From Metridium senile (taxonomy: Eukaryota; Cnidaria; Anthozoa; Actiniaria; Metridiidae), in the NCBI GenBank assembly GCA_949775045.1, contig OX459103.1, positions 17,450,307-17,514,306 of the forward strand: a DNA stretch of 64,000 nt, in the 5' to 3' direction. Numbering within the stretch: the stretch's first letter is position 1; the number at the start of each line of letters is the position of its first letter. The translations under genes were made by a program, and so were the position numbers. The notes beneath the pieces were generated by a model. The model searched no databases and was not told where the DNA came from. It saw nothing but the letters and a program-made list of their open reading frames with translations. Positions 15,077-31,953 of the stretch are shown here, piece after piece.

Positions 15077-15127
15077 CATTTGTGCTCATTGTAGGCTGAT
15101 CTTCACTGTCACTGTCACTGCTCCATT
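15077..15127 (-). CDS. Acidic exon after the recombinase-like domain
   Basis: A 51-bp exon, phase 1-1, between a TTTTAAACAG acceptor and a G|GTATGA donor. It encodes WSSDSDSEDQPTMSTN, a Ser/Asp stretch with several casein-kinase-2-like sites. It follows the exon ending at 15545 in phase and matches the tandem-unit exons in style, which is why I link the two regions. Confidence 0.65.

Positions 15128-31953: not shown

Follow-up and report, generated by a model that had tools for sequence, protein, structure and literature searches.

SETMAR joins a SET domain to a DDE mariner transposase in one primate fusion. Here, we describe a predicted gene that resembles SETMAR in plan only: in the actiniarian Metridium senile, a SET domain like that of KMT5A/SETD8, the monomethyltransferase of histone H4 lysine 20 (H4K20), is joined to Cys/His zinc fingers and to a domain with a predicted tyrosine-recombinase fold, an arrangement predicted in four animal phyla. 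The gene lies on the minus strand of a 64,000-nucleotide stretch (contig OX459103.1 of assembly GCA_949775045.1, positions 17,450,307 to 17,514,306; hereafter “the window”). Our searches of the open-licence literature found no description of SET or KMT5A/SETD8 fused to a tyrosine recombinase, a Crypton or a transposon.

Several described systems resemble one half of this gene. Tyrosine recombinases carry a His (or Lys) three residues before the Arg of box II. DIRS and Ngaro elements encode such a recombinase and require a reverse transcriptase. CryptonA, CryptonI and the DUF3504 genes (ZMYM2, QRICH1, KCTD1), like the window gene, provide an animal tyrosine-recombinase protein outside a retrotransposon. 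According to PMC3212892, DUF3504 is matched by the recombinase of each of three CryptonA elements (E ≤ 8e-12), animal Cryptons lack a C-terminal domain, and the described domesticated (DUF3504) genes have lost the Tyr and the second Arg; Crypton-derived genes are often transcription regulators. The SET half resembles the “KMT5A-like” gene expansions reported in PMC10368294, which number up to 65 genes for Hydractinia and 61 for sea urchin. Most of these have an N-terminal SET domain, and the longer ones share C-terminal ends between urchin and Hydractinia; they are interpreted there as predicted H4K20 methyltransferases. The words “recombinase” and “integrase” do not occur in the main text of that paper.

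The predicted gene and its putative catalytic domains

Eleven minus-strand exons, A to K, run from 31953 to 15077 of the window with GT donors and AG acceptors (exon A has no acceptor and begins at the ATG). Their splice phases are consistent throughout (0, 1, 2, 1, 2, 2, 1, 2, 0, 1, 1), and the joined exons form an open frame of 747 aa. The predicted protein begins with a KMT5A-type SET domain, followed by two finger-like motifs and a recombinase-like domain. A first-pass annotation, made from the letters alone, had read this chain as one gene with agreeing phases and sensibly completed split codons, and both points hold: Cys is completed at the C/D junction, and Arg at E/F, F/G and H/I. It had also given 31953 to 15077 as the extent of the gene; the exons are there, but the gene runs on. 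A profile of the C-terminal ends of 45 relatives found a twelfth exon (73.4 bits, E 3.4e-21) beyond the window, at C9:17447458-17447232 (C9 is the window's contig), on the same strand and ~18 kb past 15077. Its acceptor is in the phase that exon K requires (phase 1), and it encodes a conserved C-terminal domain and a stop codon. Many relatives end in this conserved helical domain (W...E...PGK...W..K..). With the twelfth exon, the predicted protein has 822 residues and the gene spans ~35 kb. Exons within the window, in order of transcription, are as follows.

31918..31953, minus strand: exon A, the first 12 codons, counted from the predicted ATG start; frame open, donor GTAAGT
31226..31307, minus strand: exon B, where the SET region begins; spliced frame, C8 copy identical
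30952..31117, minus strand: exon C, first SET half; spliced frame, Pfam and PDB sequence matches
29430..29623, minus strand: exon D, second SET half (GRLVND, LRYDYG); spliced frame, Pfam and PDB sequence matches
22499..22654, minus strand: candidate linker exon of 156 nt, acidic, with DTDGEGD repeats and a symmetric phase of 1; in frame between an AG acceptor and a GT donor
21480..21756, minus strand: exon E, first Cys/His finger region (YDKRHNCYFC...H...H); spliced frame
20252..20518, minus strand: exon F, second Cys/His finger (CSSC...H...C); spliced frame
19179..19447, minus strand: exon G, helical, ahead of the recombinase catalytic part; core-binding-like by position
17709..18126, minus strand: exon H, further helical part, with Arg530 of box I; spliced frame, residue conservation
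16691..16964, minus strand: exon I, hairpin with Lys579, then Thr650 and Arg653 of box II; spliced frame, residue conservation
15545..15752, minus strand: exon J, His679 and putative nucleophile Tyr688; spliced frame, residue conservation
15077..15127, minus strand: exon K, acidic tail, spliced in phase 1 to the last exon; spliced frame

The 156-nt candidate at 22654-22499 may add a linker between SET and fingers. This low-complexity exon is plausible because the SET-finger linkers of relatives are longer than that of the window model and, where read, partly acidic. A homology search for an exon between SET and fingers gave no support, and a strict splice scan of that interval found none.

The SET half was expected to be KMT5A-like, and its matches agree: PF00856 is found at 55.3 bits (E 9.7e-15), and the best PDB sequence match is KMT5A/SETD8 (4.4e-23), with 39.8% identity to a human KMT5A/SETD8 fragment over 113 residues. 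The SET domain in the structure model of a relative likewise matches SETD8 structures. Conservation was counted in an alignment of 54 rows with SET and a full recombinase, at <85% identity and with the window included. The catalytic Tyr pair is kept (Y147 in 53 of 54 rows, Y149 in all 54), and the YxYG of KMT5A/SETD8 is retained. Asn109 is kept in 54/54; the next residue is Asp, not His, in 52 of them, giving Asn-Asp where KMT5A-type domains have the Asn-His of NHSC. The domain also differs from KMT5A/SETD8 in its N-terminal position and its union with fingers and recombinase. By sequence and fold matches it is of KMT5A type, and histone methylation by it is predicted. Elsewhere in the genome, a SET match on contig C13 (L020) is 36% identical to the KMT5A fragment and does carry NHSC; another locus, L021, had no match when compared with that fragment.

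The structure search, one of two tests set in advance to refute the reading, returned a recombinase fold: an AlphaFold2 model of a relative matches tyrosine recombinases and topoisomerases (the tyrosine recombinase/type IB topoisomerase fold). Phage phi3T SroF accounts for two of the 50 VIA rows of this search, and the title of a third row (3c28) is uninformative. Best matches in BFVD are unnamed proteins, a nudivirus factor and phage integrases, and among viral_contigs 11 pattern matches yielded no confirmed relative. PF00589, the curated tyrosine recombinase family, has no hit in the window model; it is found in 2 of 32 relatives (best E 0.0011; P0081 under the cut-off) and precomputed in 2 of 120 others. 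When PDB was searched with a sequence profile, the matches fell in the finger region and none was to a recombinase.

The five-residue set of tyrosine recombinases is present: R530 (box I), K579, R653 (box II), H679 and Y688. By our own reading, R530 is assigned to box I from its R-x-x-E context, in which E533 is invariant. The marks that had been recognized from the letters, namely His plus nine residues to Tyr (GH679...Y688), the box I Arg and the Lys hairpin, are near-invariant in relatives. In the 54 rows, R530 and K579 are each kept in 52, T650, H679 and Y688 in 53, and R653 in 54. In 38 rows at <65% identity, the counts are 37 for R530, T650, H679 and Y688, 36 for K579 and 38 for R653, against a mean column conservation of 0.54. 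A further 117 relatives included 90 with enough recombinase sequence, none of these with a SET match (the length filter excludes long SET-bearing proteins); they keep R530 in 88, K579 in 89, T650 in 89, R653 in 90, H679 in 89 and Y688 in 88. SET-less relatives thus retain the same residues as SET-bearing ones. The position three residues before the box II Arg is Thr650 (37/38 rows) where most recombinases carry His.

These features set the family apart from the described systems. DUF3504, which we take to be PF12012, has no match in the window model at E ≤ 1, nor does it appear among 25 of the 29 families listed for 32 relatives. The window protein has SET, fingers, a C-terminal domain and Thr at box II, unlike animal Cryptons, and retains the catalytic Tyr, unlike the DUF3504 genes. 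Because there is no DUF3504 match and a conserved C-terminal domain is present, the family is, by the published diagnostic, not CryptonA. With no reverse transcriptase family in the 747-aa spliced protein, it is, on predicted content, not DIRS/Ngaro either. By these tests, it would be an animal tyrosine-recombinase lineage distinct from CryptonA.

We consider it slightly more likely than not that this is one 12-exon gene whose product would bind chosen DNA sites, cut and rejoin them through Tyr688 and methylate histones in the nucleosomes located there. DNA would be held by the fingers, by the helical stretch preceding the catalytic part and by the C-terminal domain, which we read as Myb-like. 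Arg530, Lys579, Arg653, His679 and Tyr688 would perform strand cleavage, with Thr650 in the usual place of His, and SET would mark nearby chromatin, perhaps opening the site or holding it for recombination. A mobile element with fingers and a recombinase, of which SET-less relatives occur, would be the ancestor of the recombinase half. SET would have joined it early in animal history, and the copy in the window would now resemble an intron-rich resident gene. A recombinase with SET acting on bound chromatin is favoured because the cleavage residues are retained.

Relatives across animal phyla

Among 7997 scored candidates, 302 proteins match the whole model at E ≤ 1e-3; the best 120 were listed. 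By profile, 92 of the 120 carry both domains and 28 the recombinase alone (an earlier count of SET by column identity was lower, 88/120). The SET half found a further 85 listed relatives, 57 with both domains and 28 with SET alone. SET precedes the recombinase in all 149 two-domain proteins of the 205 listed, which are annotated models. These lists hold best matches, including isoforms of one gene, and are not a census. Both domains occur in Cnidaria (Acropora; Rhopilema, with a partial recombinase), Echinodermata (Strongylocentrotus, Apostichopus, Acanthaster), Mollusca (Haliotis and Sinanodonta, with no C-terminal domain match) and Chordata (many teleosts and the frog Ranitomeya). The similar predictions in fish and cnidarians that the first-pass annotation mentioned are among them. 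Two fish models, P0132 and P0198, join the same SET to a DDE transposase and to gypsy pol, respectively (precomputed Pfam); they are probable chimaeras of gene models, or else SET captured by other elements.

The SET half, recombinase half and C-terminus of the window model were each compared separately with the 205 relatives. Acropora millepora LOC114951566 (P0121), annotated as a single protein with SET, fingers, recombinase and C-terminal domain, is the top match for both SET and C-terminus, and for the recombinase half it scores within one bit of the top match. Distances between SET domains correlate with those between recombinase domains (r 0.757; the largest of 2000 permutations gave 0.352), although fish dominate the rows and the permutation result is hence not a plain probability. 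In a recombinase tree of 38 rows, SET presence takes 7 changes (shuffled mean 12.4, with 1 of 500 shuffles as low), and SET-bearing rows stand on both sides of the deepest drawn split; the tree comes from a quick search with a midpoint root, and P0001 is labelled SET-less in it. On these comparisons the fusion did not arise locally, being common to four phyla and to both sides of that split.

SET-less relatives, often single-frame, come from beetles, corals, fish and metagenomes, with up to 108 members per 90% cluster, though members may be samples rather than copies. Some are shorter models of SET-bearing genes, since the SET-less P0001 (Acropora muricata) is identical in 930 of 931 residues to the C-terminal part of P0121. 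By contrast, Leptinotarsa P0103, with 317 residues ahead of its finger match, looks truly SET-less.

The family also bears on the “KMT5A-like” expansions, which it resembles in its N-terminal KMT5A-type SET and its long proteins (PMC10368294). The sea urchin part probably belongs to the SET-recombinase family, because urchin P0084, P0115, P0175 and P0201 each hold SET, fingers and recombinase (three of the four also the C-terminal domain); the identity of the loci is inferred. The Hydractinia expansion perhaps belongs as well, by a similar inferred link, but the listed hydrozoan proteins (Hydra P0151, Clytia P0199) have SET without recombinase, which weighs against extending the family simply to Hydractinia. 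A wider proposal, which we put forward tentatively and hold as less probable than not, is that these are ancient, still catalytically armed animal recombinases, mobile now or until recently, with their own histone methyltransferase, guided by SET and marking chromatin at their cuts. The “H4K20 methyltransferase” expansions, active at genome activation in Hydractinia and later in urchin, would then be the same class, transcribed along with other mobile elements. Apart from this proposal, the predicted gene would represent a fusion, deep in animal history, of a histone methyltransferase and a DNA strand-exchange enzyme with both active centres largely retained. As the arrangement is also present in proteins of corals, molluscs, echinoderms and fish, a number of genes catalogued as additional histone methyltransferases probably code for recombinases. 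This offers an alternative reading of the expansions at embryonic genome activation, and raises the question whether fish proteins annotated as KMT5A, SETD8-A or SET-1 (P0070, P0024, P0083) cut DNA.

Copies in the genome and alternative readings

The 389-Mb assembly holds further copies. Finger or recombinase parts are found in partial form on contigs C1, C2, C4, C6, C7, C13 and C14 and at other places on C8, and many contain stop codons; C16 and C11 have SET exons without recombinase matches. At C8 ~1.31-1.33 Mb, exons resembling SET are followed or preceded at ~20 kb, on one strand, by exons resembling the recombinase, perhaps as another fusion gene. In the C2 copy, one continuous block that includes one stop corresponds to exons E-H, so intron content differs between lineages. 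A pair of copies, on C2 and at C8:2.3 Mb, differs by dN (nonsynonymous divergence) 0.042 and dS (synonymous) 0.245 over 357 codons, stop codons skipped. On C2 (L013), a chromodomain-looking frame by our own reading (301-1056) lies 4 kb upstream of a SET-less finger-recombinase copy (5053-6249) with the same orientation, and may be a second kind of chromatin module next to this recombinase. On C11 (L017), a C-terminal domain copy (5714-5892) lies ~250 bp upstream of SET exons (4219-5458) on the same strand, as if head-to-tail.

Such dispersal over several contigs makes it possible, if less than likely, that the window copy belongs to a still-mobile family, a tyrosine-recombinase element carrying SET as chromatin cargo. 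Several loci per fish species, the many urchin KMT5A-like genes (PMC10368294) and the large clusters of SET-less single-frame relatives agree with this. Against it, copy comparisons yielded no element ends (in the C8/C9 pair, the C1 tandem pair, the C2/C8:2.3 Mb pair or the SET-only C16/C11 copies), the C8/C9 duplication described below is larger than the gene, and many partial copies contain stops. The multicopy dispersed families speak for a role serving an element, and the intron-rich intact gene for one serving the animal.

A domesticated regulator, in which the recombinase fold only binds DNA and brings SET to chosen loci without cutting, is rather unlikely. An intron-rich 35-kb gene with its own stop, the replacement of the box II His by Thr, and the frequency of transcription regulators among Crypton-derived genes (PMC3212892) would suit it. 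What would not is that each of the five catalytic residues is retained in at least 36 of the 38 divergent rows, given that the domesticated Cryptons described there lost Tyr and the second Arg. The cleavage residues are retained across phyla, whereas those genes lost Tyr; the comparison argues that cutting, and not binding alone, has been selected.

An old gene or element dying after selection has gone is improbable. The relevant comparison is with a second gene copy on C8, inside a >56-kb duplication. All 12 exons match between C8 and C9, with 3 substitutions in 2470 compared bases. By a gap-aware count, introns (37/13691, 0.27%) and exons (3/2469) do not differ significantly (P 0.27); faster introns, suggested by BLAST identity (98.9%), were dropped after this count. 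The C8 copy gives no evidence of selection, as a dying gene would predict, but a duplication this young lends the test little power, and the 12 exons are without stop or frameshift and retain all five catalytic residues. The C9 stretch past the duplication has no match beside the C8 copy (one side; 40 of 3238 first-look candidates scored), which makes a bounded segmental duplication likelier than a haplotype artefact.

Two neighbouring genes, SET and finger-recombinase, with phases agreeing by chance are very improbable. In their favour, the halves are separated by a 7.7-kb intron that contains a minisatellite, recombinase without SET occurs in 28 of the 120 listed relatives, and C16 and C11 have SET exons alone; against them, 149 of the 205 listed relatives (annotated models, 85 chosen by SET) hold both in one polypeptide with SET first, their distances co-vary, and P0001 is a shorter model of a P0121-type gene. 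The predicted single gene, with SET, fingers and recombinase-like half in one reading frame as first proposed, is thus retained.

Neighbouring features in the window

Several repeats lie in the introns of the gene. Positions 26997-28572 (intron D/E) hold the minisatellite, with 127/130-bp units in at least 11 overlapping copies. A tRNA-like stretch at 30373-30446 (intron C/D), probably the head of a short interspersed element, adjoins long TTA and GGTGAT repeats. Between exon K and the last exon, the intron contains a 5.4-kb palindromic insertion (9289-14699) with arms of 1484 + 344 nt that are 99-100% complementary, ends AACACTGG and a 4-bp AAAG target duplication; the C8 copy is an empty site for it, and a 92% relative of its parts lies at C8:2.32 Mb. 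The same long intron holds a tandem array (1869-8000) of three ~2.03-kb units, arranged differently on C8 and C9.

Separate from the gene, a DIRS-like retroelement (52467-56532, minus strand) has a zinc-knuckle frame and a reverse transcriptase (70.2 bits). It also has a recombinase frame, in which box II is an ordinary HSLR and the PF00589 match is weak (19.2 bits, under the cut-off). An immunoglobulin I-set exon (62262-62633, minus strand; 65.5 bits) belongs to a neighbouring host gene.
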